Positions 14,463 through 25,490 of a DNA stretch of 64,000 nt are shown here, piece after piece. Origin of the DNA: Pseudomaricurvus alkylphenolicus (GTDB taxonomy: Bacteria; Pseudomonadota; Gammaproteobacteria; Pseudomonadales; Cellvibrionaceae); NCBI RefSeq assembly GCF_011683955.1, contig NZ_JAAQPI010000003.1, forward strand, positions 1 through 64,000. The letters are read 5' to 3'. The number at the start of each line of letters is the position of its first letter. The stretch's first letter is position 1. Both the position numbers and the translations under genes were made by a program. The notes under the pieces were generated by a model. That model was not told the DNA's origin, did not search any database, and was given only the letters and a program-made list of their open reading frames with translations.

Positions 14463-14798
14463 ATGCCTTACGTCATTCGAAACCGGCAAGGTCAGATCAC
14501 GGCGCTGCTTAAAGAACCTGCCTTGGGTCTGGAGGAGCACCTGGACTCGGCTCACGAAGATATTGTTGAGTTTCTAAACGAAAAAAAAGAGGATAGCCCC
14601 GAAAAGGCACTGGCCAGCTCGGATAGAGACATTGCTCGGGTGACTGAAGATTTGGTAAATCTGCTGATCGCCAAAAACCTGATTCTGTTTACAGAATTAC
14701 CTGAGGCAGTGCAACGCAAGCTGCTGAACCGGGAGAAACTACGCTCTTCGCTACAGGGCGCCATTGAGAATTTTCTCGACGACGATGATGCTATATAA
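14463..14798 (+). CDS. Conserved small protein annotated in relatives as 'tryptophan synthase subunit beta like'
   Basis: This 111-residue protein starts MPYVIRNRQGQITALLKEP and contains the conserved segment DIARVTEDLVNLLIAKNLILFTELPEAVQRKLLNREKLRSSL followed by an acidic tail. I recognise it as a short gammaproteobacterial family whose database name is misleading: no PLP-binding or tryptophan synthase domain is present. Function is unknown. I chose ATG 14463 because the family begins MPYV and GGGAG lies upstream; an in-frame extension to 14349 is open but unlikely. The gene converges on recX, overlapping its 3' end by 8 bp. Confidence 0.75.
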   Translation: MPYVIRNRQGQITALLKEPALGLEEHLDSAHEDIVEFLNEKKEDSPEKALASSDRDIARVTEDLVNLLIAKNLILFTELPEAVQRKLLNREKLRSSLQGAIENFLDDDDAI

Positions 14799-15396
14799 AG
14801 TGCTGGTAGTCGTCCTGGCTAAAACCACGATACTGTAGAAAGCGCAGCTGTTTGGCTTTTTCTTTGAGATCCCGCTGCGTGTTTCCTTGGGCAGCGCGGG
14901 TGAATTTTCGACTCCAGCTGGCAAAAGCCGCTTCTGCCCAGTCGTTTTGCTCGCCGAACACCTCGGCGTTGGCCAACTCACCATTGACCCCTTTGTCCCG
15001 CAACTCTTGAATGATGCGTTGAGGACCAAACCCCTTGCGTTTACGCATGGCAACATAGGCCTCTGCGAATCTCGCATCGCTCTGCAGATTCTCTGCCTGC
15101 AACTGATCAAGAACTACGTCCACAAGCGTTGAGTCATCAGGGTAGCGTTTGAGTAGTTTTTGCCGCAACTCCCGATAGGCGTGTTCCCTCCTGGCCAACA
15201 ACCCCATTGCAGACCAGCGGATTGATCTGAGAGTGTCATCGGAGGAGTCTGACTCTGACTCGTCTGATTGAGAACTGATGGAGTTGAGCTGGGGGGAGAG
15301 TGAAGGGGAAGCAGCAACCTCCCCTTTTAATAGCGATCGCGCAGTGACCAGACCAAGCTCGTCGAGATTCAGCGGCGGGTTGGTCACCTTGGACAA
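14791..15396 (-). CDS. recX: Regulatory protein RecX
   Basis: RecX binds RecA filaments and inhibits or modulates recombinase activity. The 201-residue protein has the three-helix RecX repeats: SIRWSAMGLLARREHAYRELRQKL, then LDQLQAENLQSDARFAEAYVAMRKRKGFGPQRIIQELRDKGV and a C-terminal helical repeat. An N-terminal extension of ~55 Ser/Asp-rich residues precedes the family core; its start is uncertain and an internal start could be used. It lies 16 bp downstream of recA on the same strand, the usual arrangement, so it is probably expressed by read-through from the LexA-controlled recA promoter. Confidence 0.92.
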   Translation of the reverse strand: MSKVTNPPLNLDELGLVTARSLLKGEVAASPSLSPQLNSISSQSDESESDSSDDTLRSIRWSAMGLLARREHAYRELRQKLLKRYPDDSTLVDVVLDQLQAENLQSDARFAEAYVAMRKRKGFGPQRIIQELRDKGVNGELANAEVFGEQNDWAEAAFASWSRKFTRAAQGNTQRDLKEKAKQLRFLQYRGFSQDDYQHFI

Positions 15397-15412
15397 GAGA
15401 GCTTAACCTCGA

Positions 15413-16444
15413 TCAGGCCTCAGCTTCTGCAGCGCTTTCCTCTTCCGCCCCGTTAGACTCGGGTAGCAATTCCGCACGGATCTGTGCCTCAATGGTTTCG
15501 GCAACTTCGGTATTTTCCTGCAGATATTTCACAACGTTGTTTTTACCCTGGCCAATTTTGGTGCCCTGATAGCTGTACCAGGCGCCGGCTTTGTCCACCA
15601 GGCCAAGCTTAACGCCAAAATCGATCACTTCGCCCAGGCGGTTAATGCCTTGGCCGTAGAGAATTTGAAATTCGGTTTGTGTAAATGGAGGCGCGACTTT
15701 GTTTTTGACCACTTTCACCCGGGTTTCAGAACCAATCACTTCATCGCCATCCTTGACCGCACCAATACGACGGATATCGAGACGAACCGAAGAATAGAAC
15801 TTAAGAGCGTTACCACCGGTGGTGGTTTCCGGGTTACCAAACATAACGCCGATCTTCATACGAATCTGGTTAATAAAGATGGCCAGGCAGTTGGCGCTCT
15901 TGATGTTACCGGTGATTTTACGCAGAGCCTGGGACATCAAACGTGCCTGCAGCCCCACGTGGTGATCACCCATTTCACCTTCAATTTCAGCCTTGGGGGT
16001 CAGGGCTGCGACGGAGTCCACTACCAGCACATCAATGGCTCCGGAACGCACCAGCATATCCGCCACTTCCAGCGCCTGCTCACCGGTGTCCGGCTGAGAC
16101 ACAATCAGGTCATCAACATTAACACCGAGCTTTTCAGCGTAGATGGGGTCCAGGGCGTGTTCAGCGTCGATAAAGGCACAGGTGCCGCCGGCTTTCTGGG
16201 CCTCGGCAATCGCCTGCAGGGTCAGTGTGGTTTTACCAGAAGATTCCGGACCGTAAATCTCTACAATCCGCCCCTTGGGGAGGCCGCCAATACCCAGAGC
16301 CACATCGAGGCCCAGGGAGCCGGTGGAGATGGCGGGAATGCGCTCACGCTCTTTGTCGCCCATGCGCATAACAGTGCCTTTACCAAATTGGCGCTCAATT
16401 TGGCCGAGGGCGGCCTGTAATGCTTTTTCCTTATTCTGGTCCAT
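15413..16444 (-). CDS. recA: Recombinase RecA
   Basis: The 343-residue protein is almost unmistakable: N-terminal [18 protein letters not shown], Walker A GPESSGKT (~66-73), Walker [11 protein letters not shown]-type strand, L2 region [19 protein letters not shown], and an acidic C-terminal tail ([10 protein letters not shown]). It forms ATP-dependent filaments on single-stranded DNA for homologous recombination and triggers LexA self-cleavage. A LexA box lies about 115 bp upstream. The pncC-recA-recX order is typical of gammaproteobacteria. Length is normal. Confidence 0.99.
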
Positions 16445-16558
16445 GACCCACCTCTTTATAGATTCTCAAACCGACACGCTAGCCGGCTCTTAGTTATTCA
16501 GTTATTGACCACTGTTGGCTGGTAAACTCAACTGGGTGCATTGAAACACAATCGAATC

Positions 16559-16578
16559 TACTGTACAACCAAACAGTA
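16559..16578 (-). promoter_or_regulatory. LexA (SOS) box upstream of recA
   Basis: TACTGTACAACCAAACAGTA fits the gammaproteobacterial LexA consensus CTGT-N8-ACAG with the flanking TA bases. It lies between pncC and recA, ~115 bp before the recA start, and is the only such site I noticed. SOS induction of recA and recX is the expected consequence. Confidence 0.9.
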
Positions 16579-16622
16579 CTATTTTTTTATACAGCCTTTT
16601 TGCTGCAGCTTGCGCATCGGTC

Positions 16623-17150
16623 TCAGCCTGCCGCCTGCAGCTGCTCCATAAGACCGTTCAGGGCGAATAACACCGCTTGTTCGCGCACCTGGCGCCGGTT
16701 GCCGGCAAAGACTTCGCACTGGCTGTGAGTGCCCTGAGCCGTTCCCCAGGCGAGCCAGACCGTTCCGACCGGCTTATCGGCACTGCCACCATCGGGGCCG
16801 GCAATGCCACTGGTGGCAACCGCAACATCAGCGCCCCGTGCCAGGACTCCGGCAACCATCGCCTCTACTACGGGCCGACTCACCGCCCCGTGCTGATCCA
16901 GAACAGCCTCATCCACTCCCAGAAGGCGCTGCTTGCTTTGGTTGGCGTAGGTCACCAGCCCCTCCTCAAACCAGGCGGAACTGCCGGCGGTATCGGTAAT
17001 GGCCGCAGCGATCATGCCACCGGTGCAAGACTCCGCCGTGCCCAGGACCAGTCCCTGCTGTAGCAGTTCTCTACCCAGAGATTTTGACAGCGCCTCACAG
17101 CTCTGTTGGTACGCCTCTTCACTGCTGGTGTCGCTGTGATTTACAGTCAT
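16623..17150 (-). CDS. pncC: Nicotinamide-nucleotide amidohydrolase PncC (CinA C-terminal domain)
   Basis: The protein deamidates nicotinamide mononucleotide to nicotinate mononucleotide, recycling NAD by-products. The CinA C-terminal fold is clear: LVLGTAESCTGGMIAAAITDTAGSSAWFEEGLVTYAN, then AVATSGIAGPDGGSADKPVGTVWLAW. From ATG 17150 it has 175 residues, close to the ~165 of stand-alone PncC. An in-frame ATG at 17201 would add 17 residues with no family match. It sits upstream of recA as in Pseudomonas, but a foreign-looking four-gene operon now separates it from mutS. Confidence 0.92.
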   Translation of the reverse strand: MTVNHSDTSSEEAYQQSCEALSKSLGRELLQQGLVLGTAESCTGGMIAAAITDTAGSSAWFEEGLVTYANQSKQRLLGVDEAVLDQHGAVSRPVVEAMVAGVLARGADVAVATSGIAGPDGGSADKPVGTVWLAWGTAQGTHSQCEVFAGNRRQVREQAVLFALNGLMEQLQAAG

Positions 17151-17201
17151 TGGAATGCCCGAGTCCTTGATGAAAGCGGGAGCAATTATGCCAAAGTTCA
17201 T

Positions 17202-17846
17202 CAGGACCCAGTAGACTCAGCCTCTCAGAAATTTGATTGAATCGGGGCTATCGACTGCCCATAAATTTGTCGCCGTTCCAGCACCGAGCCCTTGTCATTT
17301 TATTAGCCAAATACACACCACCGGACAGCTCATTGGCTCAACCCGGGTCAGCGTCGACAAATTAGATCAGGAACTTCTCAAACTCCGGCCACATATGCGT
17401 AAATGTGATTAGAACGATAGAATAACAGTCGGTACAAAGTAGAATAAGGCGACACCGGCAACCTGACATCAATTTCAACAAGCAGATTCAAAGATATTTC
17501 ACACTCCTTTGGGAAAATTTGAACAATCCGAACTTGTGTTTGCAAATTATGTCGTTACTATTGGATGCAGCTGGTTTTAATGGCTTCGGAGGCAGCCCGA
17601 CCATAAAAACCTAAGCAATTGTTTTACAAGGATTTTTGCCAGAGAAAATCACCCTTGGACGCAAATGACCGGCATCAGTCCAAGCCTGGTGGCCCGCAGT
17701 TTGCTTACCAATGATCAAACAGTGAAGAATTCTGGCAGATTGTAAATTTAGCTGACAGCAACACGATCGGCGTGAGTATATTCCAGCAGCCCAACATGCT
17801 GGCCTGTAAATAAAACTGACAGAATTGCGATCGATGTGAGTGAATT
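17202..17846. other. 645-bp intergenic region upstream of the HPr-rel-A operon
   Basis: No convincing coding sequence. It must hold promoters for pncC (minus) and the HPr-rel-A operon (plus). At its right end are two ~31-bp imperfect direct repeats (17752-17782 and 17816-17846). They share CTGACAG, CGATCG and GTGAGT in the same order, and the second ends exactly at the start codon of the next gene. Confidence 0.6.
17752..17846 (+). repeat. Pair of 31-bp direct repeats, 64 bp apart, at the start of the HPr-rel-A operon
   Basis: Copies at 17752-17782 and 17816-17846 share CTGACAG, CGATCG, GTGAGT and a final ATT/ATT-type end. The second carries the purine-rich GTGAG used as ribosome binding site for ATG 17847. 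The first looks like a copy of the same leader without its gene, or a repeated regulator site. Confidence 0.55.
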
Positions 17847-18626
17847 ATGGAAAGTAAAAAACCTGTAGAGGAATCTGCATCAGTGCCAGTGGACTCCAGC
17901 AAAAACGAGAGTCGCAGGAAGCTGATTAAAAAGGCGGGAGTGGTTGCTCCGGGCCTTCTCATACTCGCAAATCGCCCTGCGATGGCAGCAAGTTGCTCTA
18001 TTTCCGGGTTTATGTCGGCTCGCGTTGGCACCTCTTTGACTACCTATGACCCGGGTCTTTGTGACGGCTGGAGTCCAGGCAACTGGACACAGAATGTCGG
18101 CCAGATCACCGACCAGGCCTGGGCGCTTGCCGGAATTGCTCGAACCACACCGTTCAACAGCGAGTTTACAACGTCGGGTCCAAATTTTAGTGGCGGAGTG
18201 ATTCGTCGGGTTGTCGATGGCGTCCCGGACGCTGCGGCCTATGATTACGACAGCATGTTCGCCCAGACCTTTCAACAGATATTAGAGGGCATACTTCCCG
18301 GTCAAGGCAGCCTTAAGGACATTACAAAACACGCCGCGGCGGCCCTGCTCAATGCCCTGTTCATTCAAAATGGTGGCGGCGGTGGCAATCCGGACCCCTG
18401 GATGATCAATTATGTGTCACCCGAGGATGTGATAGGGCTGTATCTGTTGTATGAGCTGACTTTTCAAGACCCGACACCACAACCAGCGAATACTACGTTT
18501 GTATACGAGCGCGGCGGCGTGGTTATCGCTAGTTCGGAGGGCATGTCATCTGCGGATTATGCTGCCTTCTTCTTGAGCCTTGCAAACGGCTCCGGAAGCC
18601 AGGCCTGGCAGGATGGACTCCCATAA
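17847..18626 (+). CDS. Tat-exported protein with a degenerate SPGxW motif, first gene of the HPr-rel-A operon
   Basis: The 259-residue protein has a twin-arginine signal (SRRKLIKKAG, then VVAPGLLILANRPAMA) and probable cleavage after AMA near residue 47. The mature part opens with Cys, then CDGWSPGNWTQN, a variant of the SPGYWKNH-type motif of certain secreted bacterial proteins. It later has ITKHAAAALLNALF and a VSPEDVIGLYLLYE segment, in the same order as in that family. A run of five glycines and a Ser/Gly-rich C-terminus (LANGSGSQAW) are notable. The enzymatic function is unknown. Tight spacing with the next three genes suggests it is their substrate or co-functions with them. Tat export would mean it folds, and perhaps is modified, in the cytoplasm first. 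Confidence 0.7.
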   Translation: MESKKPVEESASVPVDSSKNESRRKLIKKAGVVAPGLLILANRPAMAASCSISGFMSARVGTSLTTYDPGLCDGWSPGNWTQNVGQITDQAWALAGIARTTPFNSEFTTSGPNFSGGVIRRVVDGVPDAAAYDYDSMFAQTFQQILEGILPGQGSLKDITKHAAAALLNALFIQNGGGGGNPDPWMINYVSPEDVIGLYLLYELTFQDPTPQPANTTFVYERGGVVIASSEGMSSADYAAFFLSLANGSGSQAWQDGLP

Positions 18627-18912
18627 CAATGGAATGACTAGCAGCCAACTTTACTGTTTGAAACATACAGAATACCTTGAATACACGGCCAACGATGAGT
18701 TGGTCGTGTTTGTATCTGCCTCTAAGAAAACCTTATTACTGCCGGGCCACTTCAAAGTTTATTTGGACTATCTCAGGCAGGCCTTTCCAGCCACACTGGG
18801 TTTTTCAATTCTGGCAGAGACCACCATGGAACAGTTCGATATCAGCATGGATCAGGTTGCCGACGATCTCAATACACTGATCAGAGCCGAATTGGTTGCC
18901 CTTAGCCAATGA
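18613..18912 (+). CDS. HPr-rel-A system PqqD-family peptide chaperone
   Basis: A protein of ~99 residues with the PqqD/RRE-like winged-helix pattern: short beta strands (YLEYTANDELVVFVSASKKTLLLPG) followed by helices (FDISMDQVADDLNTLIRAELVALS). PqqD-like proteins bind peptide substrates and present them to modifying enzymes. The next gene is an HprK-related kinase, which matches the NCBI family pair 'HPr-rel-A system PqqD family' plus 'HprK-related kinase A'. ATG 18613 overlaps the previous gene by 14 bp; ATG 18634 is an alternative giving 92 residues, and neither has a strong ribosome binding site. It overlaps the kinase start by 4 bp. Confidence 0.75.
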   Translation: MDSHNNGMTSSQLYCLKHTEYLEYTANDELVVFVSASKKTLLLPGHFKVYLDYLRQAFPATLGFSILAETTMEQFDISMDQVADDLNTLIRAELVALSQ

Positions 18913-19820
18913 GATTGGAAGACGCTGAACCCGGGAAATTGCGGGACAGGCTCTCGCAACGCGGACTGACACTGCGAACCGGGAGATTCACTACCTGTAT
19001 CCGCAGCTCAATTGAGCCTTTGGCCAACGAAATTATTAACCTTTATGGTCAATCTGAGTTGGTCGAATCGGGGTACGTAGACTTCAACGTCGAACTAAAC
19101 CCCTCGTCCGGGCTTCGCCGCTACTACCGCCCCCAGGTAAACTTCAGTTTTAATGGCCTGCAGCCCTTTGCTCCCCTTCCTGTCGACCAGTGCCTGCCAC
19201 TGATGGAATGGGGGTTAAACTGGTGCGTCAGCACACACTTTCATCAGTGCCTGATCATCCATGCGGCCGTTGTCGAGAAATATGGAAAATCTCTAGTACT
19301 CCCCGGTCAGCCCGGCTCCGGGAAGAGTACCCTTTGCGCGGCACTTGTCACCCAGGGCGGATTCCGACTGCTTTCCGATGAACTCACTCTGATCGATCCG
19401 GATACCGGGCGCATCCTGCCCAACCCGAGGCCGGTAAGTCTCAAGAACCGATCAATCGATATCGTTAAGGAAATCAATCCTAGCGGTTATTTTTCTTCCG
19501 TGGTCAGTGACACCATTAAAGGTACCGTTTGCTTAATGGCGCCACCCGAAGGAAGCTATACACAGTTTCGGACCTGTGCGGAACCAGGCCTGGTGATATT
19601 TCCGACTTTTGACCAATCCTTTACATCCTTTGAGCTTGAAGCCGTCACTAAGGGGCGCACTTTTTTGGAGTTGGCCAACCAGTCGTTTAACTATTCAATT
19701 CTGGGAGAAACCGGCTTCAAAGCGATTGGCAAACATTTGGATTTTGCCGAAGGTTACAACTTCAGGTACGACGGCAATTTAGAACAGGCCGTTGCCGTAA
19801 TAGACGAGTTTATGCAGTGA
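18909..19820 (+). CDS. HprK-related kinase A
   Basis: A 303-residue protein whose C-terminal two-thirds resemble HPr kinase: HQCLIIHAAVVEKYGKSLVLPG, Walker A GQPGSGKST (~residues 136-144), and LLSDELTLIDPDTG as the Walker B and acidic segment. HprK-like kinases phosphorylate serine in proteins, and in some lasso-peptide clusters they phosphorylate the C-terminus of the peptide. Here the target is probably the Tat protein encoded first in the operon, but that is inference. It overlaps the PqqD-like gene by 4 bp (ATGA) and the nucleotidyltransferase start by 1 bp. Confidence 0.82.
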   Translation: MRLEDAEPGKLRDRLSQRGLTLRTGRFTTCIRSSIEPLANEIINLYGQSELVESGYVDFNVELNPSSGLRRYYRPQVNFSFNGLQPFAPLPVDQCLPLMEWGLNWCVSTHFHQCLIIHAAVVEKYGKSLVLPGQPGSGKSTLCAALVTQGGFRLLSDELTLIDPDTGRILPNPRPVSLKNRSIDIVKEINPSGYFSSVVSDTIKGTVCLMAPPEGSYTQFRTCAEPGLVIFPTFDQSFTSFELEAVTKGRTFLELANQSFNYSILGETGFKAIGKHLDFAEGYNFRYDGNLEQAVAVIDEFMQ

Positions 19821-20908
19821 TGGAAACACTCTCGCTGTTGATTGGCGTGATCAGGAACCCGGAACTGATTCGGGGACTCGATACGGAAGCATGGAATCTT
19901 CTGATGGCACAAGCTTACCAGTGCAAACTCATGGGGCGCCTGCATGCCATTTTCGACAACAACGAACTCCTGGATCAGATTCCCGCAGCCATTGCCTGGC
20001 ATTTTCATTCCGCCAGGGTCATGGCCAGTGCCCACGCACAGGATGTGGAAATAGAAATTGGTAAGATCAACCAAGCCCTGAAGATAGGGGGCCTGGTTCC
20101 CACCTTCTTAAAAGGGGCAGCCTATCAGCTGGCAGATAAAGAGGTGGCCGATGGCAGATTATACTCAGACGTCGACATTTTCGTGCATAAGAAGGATCTG
20201 CCCGCCGCAGAGCATCTGCTAAAAATAAACGGCTGGCAACCGGGAGACATGAACGAATACGACCAACAGTATTACCGGCGCTGGATGCATGAAATCCCAC
20301 CCTTGGTTCATAGAGGCAGAGGGACGACACTGGATGTTCACCACAATCTGTTGCCTCTGACCTCCCGCATCAGTCTGGATGCCGACAAGTTAAGCGAGGG
20401 TATAGATAACTCCCAACGGGTTCTGCAACCAACTGACCGTATTCTGCACAGCATTGTTCATCTGCTCCTGGAAAGTGAGTTCGACAAGGGCATTAGAGAT
20501 TTGTCGGATATCCATTTGCTGATCCAACACCACGGGGCGGAGAATGCGCTTTTCTGGGATCAACTTATCGACCGGGCGTTGGAATTGGGGGTTCAACGAC
20601 TGCTTTTCTACGCCATTAGGTATCTGCAAAAGATTTTCGGAGCATCCCCTCCAGCACAGTTCGCGAAAAGGCTGGCCCAATACGCGCCAAATAAACCCAT
20701 GTTAGGCGTTATGGATTGGCTGTTTATCAGCGTCCTGTCTGAGCCTTTGGATCTTAACAAGCAGCTGAACAATAGAACTGCGCACCTTCTGATGTACCTC
20801 AGGGGGCACTGGATGAGAATGCCACTGCGCTTGCTGCTCCCTCACCTGCTGACTAAGGCTGTCTCCGGCTTGAAACGCCAGCAGGACGAAACAGCAGAAG
20901 TCGTCTGA
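19820..20908 (+). CDS. Nucleotidyltransferase-family protein of the HPr-rel-A operon
   Basis: The 362-residue protein matches the uncharacterised nucleotidyltransferase family (NTP_transf_5 type): FLKGAAYQL followed by RLYSDVDIFVHKKDLPAAEHLL, where the DVD acidic pair is the expected metal-binding site, and later a TLDVHHNLLP segment. Relatives sit in lasso-peptide clusters beside HprK-like kinases and modify the phosphorylated peptide. ATG 19820 overlaps the kinase stop codon; a GTG one codon upstream is also open. It ends the operon; no clear terminator follows before mutS. Confidence 0.8.
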   Translation: METLSLLIGVIRNPELIRGLDTEAWNLLMAQAYQCKLMGRLHAIFDNNELLDQIPAAIAWHFHSARVMASAHAQDVEIEIGKINQALKIGGLVPTFLKGAAYQLADKEVADGRLYSDVDIFVHKKDLPAAEHLLKINGWQPGDMNEYDQQYYRRWMHEIPPLVHRGRGTTLDVHHNLLPLTSRISLDADKLSEGIDNSQRVLQPTDRILHSIVHLLLESEFDKGIRDLSDIHLLIQHHGAENALFWDQLIDRALELGVQRLLFYAIRYLQKIFGASPPAQFAKRLAQYAPNKPMLGVMDWLFISVLSEPLDLNKQLNNRTAHLLMYLRGHWMRMPLRLLLPHLLTKAVSGLKRQQDETAEVV

Positions 20909-21154
20909 AGTCGAAATACAGTCTCAATTTCAACACAATATTGGTGCCCTCAGTCGCCCAACCGGCCAGTTGACCATTTGCCAATGCCTCAAATCGAGCA
21001 GTTCTGATAGTGGTTTATCAGCCCTTTTGGTATCCTCTCCGGCTTGGATTTTGACGCCCAACCGACTTATCGGCGATCAACTTATCGCCAAATAGTGGGC
21101 AGCCGACAGAAATACTCATAACACTCTGTTTTCTATCAAATTAATACTGCAAGC

Positions 21155-23833
21155 ATGACCAAAAACACCACCAAATCCAGCGCTTCCAACACCACCCATA
21201 CCCCCATGATGCAGCAGTACCTGAAGATCAAGGCGGAACACCCCCACGAGCTGGTGTTCTACCGCATGGGGGACTTCTATGAGCTGTTCTACGACGACGC
21301 CAAACGCGCCTCTGAACTGCTGGATGTAACCCTCACCGCCCGCGGCAAGTCCGGCGGCGAACCCATCCCCATGGCCGGCATCCCCTTCCATGCCGCCGAT
21401 GGCTATCTGGCGAAATTGGTCCGCAAGGGTGTGTCGGTAGCGATCTGTGAGCAGATTGGCGACCCTGCCACCAGCAAGGGTCCGGTGGAGCGCAAGGTGG
21501 TGCGTATTGTCACACCCGGCACGGTCAGCGATGAGTCACTATTGGATGAAAGCCGGGATAATCTGCTGGTGGCGCTGCATGTGGTGGAGGACACCTTTGG
21601 TATTGCCACCATGGACATCGGCTCCGGTCGTTTTCAGGTTTTGGAGGTACAGGGCCTGGATGCCGTGCTGGGAGAGTTGCAGCGGCTGAATCCGGCGGAG
21701 CTGCTGGTACCCGAGGATTTGATGGCCACCGGGATTCTGGAAAATCGCCCGGGCCTGCGCCGCCGTGCGCCCTGGGAGTTTGAACTGGAAACCGCGCAGC
21801 GACTGCTGACCCAGCAGTTTGGCACCCAGGATCTGGCCGGCTTCGGCTGTGACCATATGACCGTCGCTTTGGCTGCTGCGGGCTGCCTGCTGTCCTACGC
21901 CCAGGAAACCCAGCGCACCGCCCTGCCCCACGTCAATTCCATCAGCAGCGAAAACCGGGACGAGGCGGTGGCGATGGACGCCAGCACCCGACGTAACCTG
22001 GAGTTGGATATCAATCTCAATGGCAGCGATGAAAACACGCTGTTTGATGTGCTGAATACTTCTGCGACGGCCATGGGCGGGCGTCTGCTGCGCCGCTGGC
22101 TGAACCGCCCCCTGCGTGATTTGCACACCCTGAGCGCCCGCCAGGATGCAATTGCCAACCTGCTGGAAAATTATCAATTCGAACCCCTGCACCAAAGCCT
22201 TAAGCGAGTGGGGGATCTGGAGCGGATTCTTGGCCGTGTAGCCCTGAGATCCGCCCGCCCAAGGGACTTATCTCGCCTTTATAGCTCCCTGGCCACTTAT
22301 CCCGAATTACAGAGCCTGTTGGCGCAAACCTCTGCACTTCATCTCGCCGAGCTCGCAAAAACTGTCGGCACCTTCCCGGAATTGGAAGACCTTCTGTGCC
22401 GGGCAATTGTCGAGAACCCTCCAGTCGTCATCCGCGATGGTGGTGTGATCGCCGAGGGGTACGACAGCGAGCTGGACGAGCTGCGCAATATCAGCACCAA
22501 TGCCGGTCAGTTTCTGGTGGATCTGGAAACCCGCGAACGGGAGAAGACCGGCATCAGCACGCTAAAAGTCGGCTACAACCGGGTTCATGGTTATTATATT
22601 GAGATCAGCCGCGCCCAATCTGAACAGGCCCCCACAGAATATATCCGCCGCCAGACACTCAAGAACGCTGAACGCTTTATAACGCCGGAACTGAAAGAGT
22701 TTGAAGACAAGGCCCTGTCTGCAAAGAGCCGCGCTCTGGCGCGCGAAAAGGCGCTCTATGACGATATCGTTGAGCAGCTCAACCAGCAGCTGTTGCGCCT
22801 CCAGGATGCCGCAGGCGCCGTCTCAGAACTGGATGTACTGACCACCCTGACGGAACGTGCCGACGCCCTGAACTTTACCCGCCCCTCGCTGACACAGGAG
22901 CCGGGCATCCGCTACAGTGCCGGGCGCCATCCCGTGGTGGAGAAGGTTTCCGATCACCCCTTTGTGCCTAACGATCTCGATCTGAGCCAAACACGCCAGA
23001 TGCTGATCGTGACCGGCCCAAACATGGGCGGTAAATCAACTTATATGCGCCAGACGGCCCTGATCACACTACTGGCCCATATCGGCAGCTATATTCCCGC
23101 CGAGAGCGCCACCATTGGCATGGTGGACCGTATTTTCACCCGTATCGGTTCCTCAGATGACCTGGCTGGCGGACGATCCACCTTTATGGTGGAAATGACC
23201 GAGACTGCTAATATTCTTAACAATGCCAGTGACCGCAGCCTGGTCTTGATGGACGAAATCGGCCGTGGTACCAGTACCTTTGACGGCCTGTCCCTGGCCT
23301 GGGCCTGCGCGGTGCAGCTGGCCGAGCAAGTCAAGGCATTTACCCTGTTCGCCACTCACTACTTCGAGCTGACAGAACTGCCTCAGACCCACAACAATGT
23401 TGCCAATGTGCACCTGGACGCCACTGAGCACAACGACAACATTGTCTTTCTACATAATATCCAGGAGGGGCCGGCCAGTAAGAGTTATGGCCTCCAGGTG
23501 GCAAAACTGGCGGGAATTCCAGCGCCAGTGGTGGCGCTCGCCCAGCAACAGCTGCAGCATCTCGAGGAACAATCACAAACGGAAGTGGCAACCGCATCGA
23601 ACTTGACGCCGCCATCGCCCCCAGCCACTGAAGAATCGACTCCTGGCTACACTCCTGAGCCAACGCCGGTGCATAGCCCCAGCCCTGCCAACCCTTTTCA
23701 GGGGGATATGTTTGGCTCGGGAGAACCCCATCCTGCGCTTGAGCAACTAGAGGACCTGGACCCGGATAACCTGACGCCACGCCAGGCACTTGAGCAGCTT
23801 TACGCACTCAAACAGACATTGGCGGAAAATTGA
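21155..23833 (+). CDS. mutS: DNA mismatch repair protein MutS
   Basis: The 892-residue protein has the N-terminal mismatch-recognition motif [14 protein letters not shown] (Phe and Glu of the F-x-E motif), connector and lever domains, Walker [10 protein letters not shown] near residue ~622, Walker [21 protein letters not shown], and the dimerisation helix-turn-helix ([14 protein letters not shown]). It recognises mismatches and recruits MutL. A Pro/Thr/Ser-rich linker (~805-855) precedes the C-terminal tetramerisation segment, longer than in Escherichia coli (853 residues). The ferredoxin gene follows, as in Pseudomonas. Confidence 0.99.
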
Positions 23834-23997
23834 CCGGTTAACGGGAAAATCGTTAAGGATAATCAGATATTAAGTCTCCCGCCGATTAGAGCAAGCTGGT
23901 ACAATCCTCCGCCATTAGCCTGGGGCAGGGCATAGCACCCTGCCCGGAGAACGATTTCAATCCAAGATAGACAATTTAGAAAAGTGGAGTTTTGACC

Positions 23998-24321
23998 ATG
24001 ACTTTTGTGGTTGCGGATAACTGCGTCAAATGTAAGCACACCGACTGCGTTGAAGTGTGCCCGGTAGATTGCTTTTACGAAGGCCCCAATTTCCTGGTTA
24101 TCCACCCAGACGAATGTATCGACTGCGCCCTGTGTGAGCCAGAGTGCCCCGTGGACGCCATCTTCTCAGAAGATGAACTGCCTGCCGGTCAGGAAGTGTA
24201 TCTGGAGCTGAATGCGGAGCTGGCTGAAGTCTGGCCCAACATTACTGAGAAAAAAGACGCTCCGGCCGATGCCGAAGAATGGGATGGCGTCGAGAACAAG
24301 CTGCAGTATCTGGAGCGCTGA
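23998..24321 (+). CDS. fdxA: Seven-iron ferredoxin FdxA
   Basis: A 107-residue ferredoxin with two cluster motifs, [17 protein letters not shown] and [16 protein letters not shown], matching the [3Fe-4S][4Fe-4S] type of Azotobacter and Pseudomonas FdxA. The acidic C-terminal half ([15 protein letters not shown]) is typical. GGAG lies 8 bases before ATG 23998, which decides this start over the in-frame TTG at 23992. It sits between mutS and rpoS as in pseudomonads and is followed by a strong bidirectional terminator. Confidence 0.96.
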
Positions 24322-24400
24322 GCTCAATCTGCTGACCCATCAAAGGATATGTGATCTTGTCATAGCCCCATAGGGATATGATGGACACCTCCCTGAAATA

Positions 24401-24427
24401 AAAAACCGCGGCAAGCCGCGGTTTTTT
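24401..24427. terminator. Bidirectional rho-independent terminator between fdxA and rpoS
   Basis: A near-perfect inverted repeat, AAAAACCGCGGC facing GCCGCGGTTTTT, with A-runs on one side and T-runs on the other. It lies between the convergent fdxA and rpoS genes and can stop transcription from both directions. Confidence 0.92.
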
Positions 24428-24464
24428 ATTGGTCAGATATTATCAGCGCTGTAGTTATCGGCCT

Positions 24465-25490
24465 CTAAAGGCTGCCAAACAAAGATTCGCTGTTTAGCCC
24501 CTGTTTCTCCATGATATCCCGCAGGCGCTTTAGCGCCTCCACCTGGATCTGCCGCACGCGTTCGCGAGTCAGGCCGATTTCACGCCCCACTTCTTCCAGA
24601 GTGCTCATCTCGTAGCCCCGCAACCCAAAGCGCCGGGCAACCACTTCCCGCTGCTTTTCGGTCAACTCAGTGAGCCAGCCGTCGATGCTGTCACTGAGAT
24701 CACTGTCCTGCAGCAACGACGCCGGATCGGAGACCTGCTGATCGGCAATGGTGTCCACCAGTGTTTTCTCGGAAGACTGGCCGATGGGCACATCCATGGA
24801 GGTGACACGTTCATTAAGCCCCAACATGCGCTGAACATCTTCGATGGGTTTTTCCAACAGGTCAGCAATATCTTCCGGGGTAGGCTCATGATCCAGCTTC
24901 TGAGCCAGTTCACGCGCTGCTCGCAGGTAAACATTGAGTTCCTTCACCACATGAATCGGCAGGCGAATGGTGCGGGTCTGATTCATGATGGCCCGCTCAA
25001 TAGTCTGCCGGATCCACCAGGTGGCATAGGTGGAGAAACGGAACCCCCGCTCCGGATCAAATTTTTCCACCGCGCGGATCAGGCCGAGATTGCCTTCTTC
25101 AATCAGATCCAGAAGGGCCAGCCCGCGATTCACGTAGCGGCGGGCGATTTTTACCACCAGGCGCAAATTGCTCTCAATCATGCGCTTGCGTGATGCCTCA
25201 CAGCCCCGCAGCGCCTTGCGGGAGAAGTAGACCTCTTCCTCAGCCGACAGCAGCGGCGAAAAGCCGATTTCGTTGAGATACAGTTGGGTGGCGTCCAGTG
25301 TCTTCTGGAACTTGTCGGAATCTTTCTGTTCGATGGCGCCCTTGCGTGCGCGCGGTTTGGTTGGTTTGGCGGGCGTCGTCTTTTTAGACGCTGCCTTTTT
25401 AGGTGCGTTTTTGCCGTCACAGAAGTCCAAATCCGTGACCGCAGCTACAACTTCACTCTTCTGATAGGTTGATTCTGTTTGTACTGCCAT
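24465..25490 (-). CDS. rpoS: RNA polymerase sigma factor RpoS
   Basis: The 341-residue sigma-70-type factor has region 1.2 ([31 protein letters not shown]), region 2 ([29 protein letters not shown]), region 3 and region 4 ([27 protein letters not shown]). An N-terminal Lys/Ala-rich stretch (residues ~25-55) is variable in the family. RpoS directs the stationary-phase and general stress response. The nlpD-like gene lies directly upstream on the same strand, the conserved arrangement in which a major rpoS promoter often lies inside nlpD. Confidence 0.97.

Follow-up and report, generated by a model that had tools for sequence, protein, structure and literature searches.

A candidate RiPP-type modification cassette with a folded, Tat-exported substrate in Pseudomaricurvus alkylphenolicus and in related HPr-rel-A loci

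The first 64,000 nucleotides of contig NZ_JAAQPI010000003.1 of Pseudomaricurvus alkylphenolicus (assembly GCF_011683955.1; Pseudomonadales, Cellvibrionaceae), here called the window, contain a packed four-gene operon that runs in a single direction from 17847 to 20908 and encodes, in this order, a protein with a twin-arginine translocation (Tat) signal, a PqqD-like protein, an HprK-related kinase A and a nucleotidyltransferase-fold protein. We consider that this operon is probably a cassette of the type that makes ribosomally synthesized and post-translationally modified peptides (RiPPs), resembling the published LPP system, in which a folded protein would be phosphorylated and exported by Tat. 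Because the Tat protein is conserved and nearly constant in HPr-rel-A loci, it is very probably the substrate of the enzymes encoded beside it. In addition, its occurrence is tied to that of the exosortase (XrtA/PEP-CTERM) exopolysaccharide system, with which many environmental bacteria form their outer matrix. Enzymes of this kind are known, whereas the exported substrate and the connection with matrix genes look new.

The coordinates and gene set given in the original prediction, made from the window's sequence alone, hold, as does the tight packing that it described: the PqqD-like gene starts 7 bases past the end of the Tat gene, and at the two junctions that follow the genes share 4 and 1 bases. 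The gene order is that of other HPr-rel-A loci, and the flanking genes resemble recX, recA, cinA, mutS and rpoS (named by eye). The kinase belongs to TIGR04352 (329.7 bits; cut-off 200), with H118, G136, G138, K139, T141, D157, E158, K179 and N180 invariant among 14 aligned sequences, and the last protein belongs to PF14907 (149.6 bits; cut-off 31.2), while the Tat protein matched no Pfam or NCBIfam family. The HPr-rel-A system of NCBIfam pairs TIGR04352 with TIGR04353, a PqqD family peptide chaperone; since the window's PqqD-like protein falls below TIGR04353, we file the locus as a member by its kinase and as an operon of the HPr-rel-A type. Its positional counterparts elsewhere score above the TIGR04353 cut-off of 35 in all three cases scanned (39.6, 53.5 and 60.8 bits).

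The model of the PqqD-like protein points to the fold of a RiPP recognition element (RRE). Specifically, the AlphaFold2 prediction (predicted local distance difference test, pLDDT, 87.4; alignment of 13 rows) has as its closest fold in the PDB TbiB1, an RRE of a lasso-peptide pathway with leader peptide (Foldseek probability 1.00, TM 0.66, E 1.1e-3; no PDB match reached E 0.001), followed by other RREs and a similar domain of NO66. Likewise, the best PDB chain in a sequence-profile search was TfuB1, a weak match at E 0.029. A sequence search started from this protein found nothing among 80 regions, and the PqqD genes of other loci were therefore taken by position, a procedure that gave none in four loci and some wrong picks (for example, in L062 and L105).

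It is informative to compare the operon with known systems. LPP, reported in May 2026 from the lpp cluster of Paenibacillus alginolyticus, combines an RRE, an HprK-like kinase and an uncharacterized nucleoside triphosphate (NTP) transferase; according to the main text of that paper, the kinase places one to four phosphates on core Ser3, right after a signal-peptidase-type cut, and the cluster sits in a polysaccharide locus (PMC13381572). The operon shares with it, on the same account, the discrete RRE, the HprK-like kinase, the NTP transferase, a linear precursor without a cyclase, a Ser next to a signal-peptidase-type site and the occurrence of clusters in polysaccharide loci (PMC13381572). 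There are also obvious differences. LPP clusters are described there as mostly from Bacillota, with precursors of 35–200 aa, a YxxPxVL-type motif, an SpI-like peptidase and an MsbA-like exporter (PMC13381572), whereas the present cassette is mostly proteobacterial, its precursor carries a Tat signal as leader and a folded part some 185 residues long, and PrsR/sigma-54-type motifs lie upstream. Neither an SpI-like leader peptidase nor an MsbA-like exporter was seen by eye among the frames at 14500–24500, so we call the operon LPP-like and not a member of LPP. The main text of the LPP paper makes no mention of Tat, twin-arginine, Proteobacteria, Pseudomonadota or HPr-rel (PMC13381572). The earlier remark that no such pathway was known therefore needs qualification: a close relative has been published, without Tat export (PMC13381572).

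The phosphorylating lasso pathways (paeninodin PadeK, ThcoK, SyanK and pseudomycoidin PsmK/PsmN) likewise have an HprK-related kinase, an RRE and a leader-bearing precursor, and pseudomycoidin adds a nucleotidyltransferase-fold partner, PsmN, in the available part of that account (PMC9266682). They differ from the operon in that here no macrolactam cyclase or B2 peptidase is seen, the precursor is large and folded, and export would be by Tat. A lasso cluster was in fact considered and rejected, as no lasso cyclase, B2 protease or leader peptidase could be recognized by eye among the frames at 14500–24500, in agreement with the initial statement that cyclase and protease genes are missing. In the open-licence literature we found no substrate for HPr-rel-A kinases and no use of the names HprK-related kinase, HPr kinase-related or HprK-rel-A; 'HPr-rel-A' was not found among the matches listed, and others are possible. 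The main texts of RRE-Finder and of a 2025 RRE paper contain none of the terms kinase, HPr, phosphorylat, TIGR04353 or nucleotidyltransferase.

The role of the last enzyme is the point on which an alternative survives best. The PF14907 match and a stretch, GRLYSDVDIFV, which resembles the catalytic D-x-D of nucleotidyltransferases, would suit a true nucleotidyltransferase that AMPylates or UMPylates the protein, and this possibility, though not the one we favor, concerns the second step only and is compatible with everything else proposed here. A sugar seems the likelier group. Attachment of one or two hexoses to phosphoserine required the homologue PsmN, with a nucleotidyl intermediate left open in the part of the report available (PMC9266682), and near some of the cassettes one repeatedly finds genes of the sugar-nucleotide or glycosyltransferase kind. 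The nucleotidylation initially proposed is thus doubtful.

Evidence for the Tat protein as substrate comes from its distribution. Kinases above the TIGR04352 cut-off occur in 61 of 398 genomes of the phylum and in 24 of 390 of the order. There are 83 such loci outside the window's genome, and 79 were examined (G097, G173, G189 and G241 were left out); an upstream Tat-signal gene is found in 72 of the 79, or 73 of 80 counting the window. These figures come from a revision by eye of a script's pick, which had given an upstream Tat-type frame in 69 of 80 regions (one of the 80 was a sub-threshold paralogue from the window's genome, without such a frame): L078 and L087 were dropped, frames were swapped in L100, L119 and L138, and L068, L090, L101, L107 and L112 were added. 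When 194 genomes of the order were searched with the Tat protein as query, five others came up, each directly upstream of PqqD and kinase genes; within the window's own genome, a search for a second precursor found only P0001. A further set, with named hosts (Bowmanella, Thiobacillus, Massilia, Noviherbaspirillum, Gallionella, Methylococcaceae and others), consists of the best 80 of at least 436 kinase relatives from a scan of public genomes with a kinase alignment and overlaps the first in part (L207 = L114). A precursor is present in 77 of 78 loci from this best 80, 76 of them with a visible RR (L166 and L198 were excluded for having too little upstream sequence; L146, L192 and L195 were judged by eye). 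The original prediction had named absence of the Tat protein from other HPr-rel-A loci as what would speak against it, and a Tat-signal gene is instead found in nearly all of those examined.

The precursors fall into three types, of which B and C were defined by their C-terminal motif and A is the remainder; the 73 precursors comprise 31 of type A, 34 of type B and eight of type C. In type A, to which the window's protein belongs, a short tail and a domain containing [ST]PG[YF]W and, further on, AAxLNA follow the Tat leader; type B combines a leader and a variable core with a C-terminal CWxS; and type C has a C-terminal C[FY]ASLQ. None of the scanned precursors of any type matched a Pfam or NCBIfam family. 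Precursor type follows the kinase tree: in a quick tree of 159 kinases the type labels need 14 changes, vs 50.0 in shuffles and a minimum of 3, with two precursor-bearing loci (one partly masked, one without a visible RR) entered as 'none'. The A clade has a support of 90, and three type-A rows lie outside it (L088, whose frame ends early, L093 and L120). One family in the order to which the window belongs (f120) contains types A and B alike, and there too the type goes with the kinase clade. Linked genes are co-inherited, and the tree alone is therefore no proof of contact.

A conserved leader followed by a variable core, which is a RiPP trait, is clearest in type B. Among 32 non-redundant rows of this type, the leader keeps its RR, K, P and T in 32 and its L in 31, and the mature part hardly aligns, keeping a Cys, two Gly, a tail Ser (29/32) and the C-terminal motif. 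In type C, whose eight rows represent a single family, the core is conserved too. The motif C-[WYF]-x-S occurs at the C-terminus in 32/32 type B and 8/8 type C sequences, counts that reflect the definition of the types by that motif.

A type-A profile was also run over 274 genomes of the window's class, with at most 12 candidates scored per genome; it matched 28 of them, the window's own included, and 29 other loci were read. Twenty of these hold a full precursor, and the kinase adjoins it in all 20. Six have the TPGYWK domain only, mostly in larger proteins, with a kinase within 1.5 kb in none; the domain is hence more general, and it is the leader and tail that go with the cassette. No ordinary Tat enzyme was seen among the profile matches. 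The six leaderless TPGYWK...AALLNA loci are L254, L255, L256, L257, L260 and L263, and DUF7507 is present in one of the two scanned.

In the remaining three of the 29 loci a weaker HprK-like kinase has a very small peptide with a Tat leader next to it, and these may represent a sister system for short peptides. The tiny peptides (57–94 aa; L264:4576–4746 (+), L261:1507–1686, L259:1513–1776 and L266:5127–5408) come from two genomes of the class and carry the same kind of leader (as in 'APVVLTLKA'). Those of L264/L261 and of L259 lie near HprK-like kinases of 69.3 and 71.9 bits, far under the TIGR04352 cut-off, and one of the loci also has a PqqD gene (PF05402, 65.6 bits). The fourth, L266 (G923, E 8.7e-4), has no such kinase within the 10 kb read. 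The cores of two of the peptides repeat GS[RK]K.

It is worth considering that the Tat protein might be an ordinary co-transcribed matrix protein, with the RRE, kinase and nucleotidyltransferase serving a different peptide or a precursor of carbohydrate nature. Part of the cassettes do lie in polysaccharide loci, and seven of the 79 loci (L078, L080, L081, L087, L095, L103 and L141) have no recognizable Tat precursor. We nonetheless think this improbable, given that the Tat gene accompanies the kinase across classes with its type following the kinase clade, that the same domain without leader and tail has no kinase nearby, and that no other family holds a fixed same-strand place in as many loci when frames of at least 110 aa are clustered. 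Furthermore, in RiPP pathways an RRE implies a leader-bearing substrate.

Within the Tat protein, the sequence conservation points to the mature N-terminus. The leader contains the twin-arginine motif SRRKLIKK at residues 22–29, a hydrophobic stretch and A-x-A at 45–47 (by eye), features expected of a Tat substrate. In 99 non-redundant type-A rows, the RR on which the rows are anchored is in all 99, L40 is in 73, column 42 is S in 80 (N in the window) and column 47 is A or G in 92/98. The most conserved mature residues are C50 (94/98), S53 (95/98), S57 (95/97) and C72 (93/95), followed by W92 (88/95) and by L168 and N169 (both 87/97); the next Ser column is conserved in 82/99 and is Thr in the window protein. 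The degenerate SPGxW noted initially is present as SPGNW (residues 76–80), the local form of the family motif [ST]PG[YF]W, whose P, G and W are kept in 74, 70 and 80 of 95 rows. Mean pLDDT is 49 for residues 41–50, 43 for 51–60 and 46 for 61–70, and from residue 71 on the ten-residue means are 65–97, mostly 80–97, so that the tail around S53 and S57 is probably flexible. Because these two serines are among the most conserved positions in a probably flexible stretch near the cleavage site, the mature N-terminus is the likely target of modification, with S53 and S57 as candidates. Of the modified Tat substrate first proposed, the conserved partner gene has thus stood, and the C-terminal serines suggested as the site have not: the C-terminal end is variable in type A and does not align, and those serines were rejected as the site in the window's protein. 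A lipoprotein was also rejected by eye, as the first Cys has no fixed +1 position after A-x-A. For the mature domain no fold was found in the PDB (best Foldseek E 2.5), which is no proof of a new fold, and a further fold search gave one chain at Z 2.6 over residues 152–258 only.

C50 and C72 are conserved as much as the serines, and types B and C have another Ser in their type-defining C-terminal C-[WYF]-x-S, so the site may differ between types. Modification might then fall on the cysteines or elsewhere, with the serine tail kept for signal cleavage or for contact with the RRE. This we also regard as unlikely: the low-confidence prediction of the tail fits an accessible stretch, and HPr itself is phosphorylated at Ser46. 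HprK-type kinases have so far acted on serine, at the C-terminus of lasso peptides (PMC9266682, available part) and at Ser3 of LPP (PMC13381572, main text), where the S3T and S3Y variants were not phosphorylated.

Taken as a modification cassette with the Tat protein as substrate, the operon might work as follows. The PqqD/RRE-like protein would bind the conserved Tat-signal leader of the new precursor, as its family and fold suggest, and would present the tail C50-S-I-S53-G-F-M-S57 to the kinase, which may place one or more phosphates on S53 and/or S57; since the parts match those of LPP (RRE, kinase, NTP transferase), we infer the chemistry of its Ser3 for these serines. The PF14907 enzyme could then add a group to the phosphoserine, the least certain step and perhaps an optional one, as its gene was not found in 12 of 80 fetched regions, although some of these stop at the end of a contig. 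The tagged folded protein would leave via Tat, signal peptidase leaving the modified serines near the new N-terminus, and C50 and C72 could pair. Outside the cell, the protein may act in an exopolysaccharide matrix, and PrsK/PrsR and sigma-54 would govern its production along with that of the XrtA/PEP-CTERM system.

The association with that system is seen across the order. PrsK is above cut-off in 115 of 390 genomes, in 22 of the 24 with the cassette vs 93 of the 366 others (Fisher p 7e-11, kinship ignored), and the two cassette genomes without it are 87% and 83% complete. The window's genome has both PrsK (729.4 bits) and PrsR (734.1 bits). Near the cassettes, XrtA/PEP-CTERM families each occur in 10 to 20 of 159 loci, with representatives all above cut-offs (PrsK 780.7, PrsT 892.2, amidotransferase 979.2, chain-length protein 641.0, export protein 242.1 and acyltransferase 227.9 bits). 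The 33 NtrC-like neighbors are not all PrsR, as the representative of their family scores 372.6 bits vs a PrsR cut-off of 502.6. The likeness to XrtA/PEP-CTERM targets lies in the same genomes, partly the same loci and the same kind of upstream motif, as far as the source was available (PMC1569441); the window's precursor differs in bearing a Tat leader and in showing no PEP-CTERM tail. The operon may be part of this regulon, in that PrsR-type motifs lie upstream and PrsK and PrsR are in the genome, with the motifs reversed.

Consistent with this, PrsR-type motifs are concentrated before the precursor genes. The pattern TGTC-x-G-N4-6-T[TC]TACA was sought in 148 loci (1.84 Mb) along the strand that carries the genes, its TGTC[AG]G half being our assumption, based in part on the window's own repeats, as the sigma-54 pattern is also assumed; the upstream window of a precursor is 30–420 nt before the RR codons. 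Of 53 occurrences, 41 are in such upstream windows, where density alone would give 1.7 (among the 41 loci are some from Thiobacillus that are nearly identical), as are 20 of 67 sigma-54-type boxes vs 2.1 expected, the window's own box included. In the window there are two exact motifs, both before the operon, vs 0.02 expected, and in its 8.88-Mb genome four, two directly before the operon and two upstream of uncharacterized genes, at distances of 88 and 155 nt; a control pattern gave one match. An opposite-orientation scan (TGTAA..C[CT]GACA) found 1/105 in type A, 0/34 in type B and 0/8 in type C. Haft 2006, from which we take only the length, TTTACA end, spacing and sigma-54 nature, described, upstream of PEP-CTERM genes, a sigma-54 box together with a motif of 17 nt whose last bases are TTTACA, with a spacer of mean 62.8 nt and range 32–92 nt (PMC1569441, available part). 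The window's degenerate forward motif lies 61 nt before its box (Table 1). Between 17741 and 17846 there are, by eye, two similar stretches 64 bp apart, each with a reverse PrsR-type motif and the second ending at the start codon, an unusual layout.

Table 1. Features of the operon and its upstream region (coordinates in the window)
Feature	Coordinates	Strand	Basis
Weak PrsR-type motif TAAGCAATTGTTTTACA, matching in its 3' TTTACA only	17612..17628	+	Ends 61 nt before the -24/-12 box; weak alone
Sigma-54-type -24/-12 box TGGCCCGCAGTTTGC	17690..17704	+	142 nt before start codon; pattern match
Exact PrsR-type 17-mer TGTCAGCTAAATTTACA, reverse orientation	17741..17757	-	Pattern match
Second exact 17-mer TGTCAGTTTTATTTACA, reverse orientation, 64 bp past the first	17805..17821	-	Pattern match
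Tat-signal precursor, candidate substrate, 259 aa	17847..18626	+	Sequence, family conservation
Leader: N-extension and twin-arginine signal peptide, residues 1-47; putative RRE binding	17847..17987	+	99 type-A rows; cleavage site by eye
Mature tail ASCSISGFMS..., residues 48-70; putative phosphorylation at S53 and/or S57	17988..18056	+	Conservation, pLDDT
Folded domain, residues 71-255, with SPGNW (76-80) and ALLNA	18057..18611	+	pLDDT
PqqD-like protein, 92 aa, predicted RRE-type fold, at TIGR04353 position	18634..18912	+	AlphaFold2 model, locus position
HprK-related kinase A (TIGR04352)	18909..19820	+	NCBIfam match
PF14907 nucleotidyltransferase-fold protein; putative second step on phosphoserine	19820..20908	+	Pfam match

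Several observations weigh against the reading of the operon as a matrix-linked modification cassette. Besides the seven loci without a recognizable precursor, the PqqD-like protein that misses TIGR04353 and has no meaningful Pfam or NCBIfam match, and the regions in which the nucleotidyltransferase was not found, one locus of the named set (L171) lacks a precursor and another (L192) has a precursor frame without RR. A conserved Ser beside a Cys could serve folding or signal cleavage, and LppN had no detectable effect in its test host, according to the main text (PMC13381572). With regard to the exopolysaccharide link, the window genome's XrtA/PEP-CTERM locus sits on another contig than the operon, and of 159 loci just 20 show a PrsK-family gene in the sequence retrieved. 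Likewise, the window's two exact motifs are reversed and downstream of the sigma-54-type box, the forward motif is absent in 107 of 148 loci, and motif and box occur together in eight of the 148, counted by eye.

One can imagine a wider picture, which we offer tentatively and hold to be less probable than the cassette itself: a large undescribed proteobacterial class of RiPP-like proteins in which the Tat signal doubles as RRE leader, serines are phosphorylated and then glycosylated, and a phospho-sugar near the N-terminus ties a folded exported protein to exosortase-associated exopolysaccharide. Were this so, the matrix would have a built-in protein-glycan link, and one leader serving as both Tat signal and RRE ligand would join two separate fields. 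HPr-rel-A kinases are common, and the present evidence names a probable substrate and a candidate site for them, in a system tied to exosortase and exopolysaccharide genes.

The window's genome holds a second enzyme pair (L121:6802–9190; contig C34, about 577–579 kb), without a Tat-type frame upstream. One member is a PqqD-HprK fusion that scores 106.9 bits against TIGR04352, under its cut-off, and 32.5 bits against PF05402; the other is a PF14907 protein of 180.1 bits. Finally, 23 of the 159 loci encode, no more than about 3 kb from the kinase, a trypsin/HtrA-like protease with an apparent signal peptide (for example, L142:3013–3759, L195:2353–3162 and L224:10605–11414; Pfam Trypsin_2 in L142, with NCBIfam matches all below cut-off), and it may process the exported protein. 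The nearest homologue of the cassette-side trypsin-like protease of Bowmanella (48% identity) lies in the XrtA locus of the window's genome.

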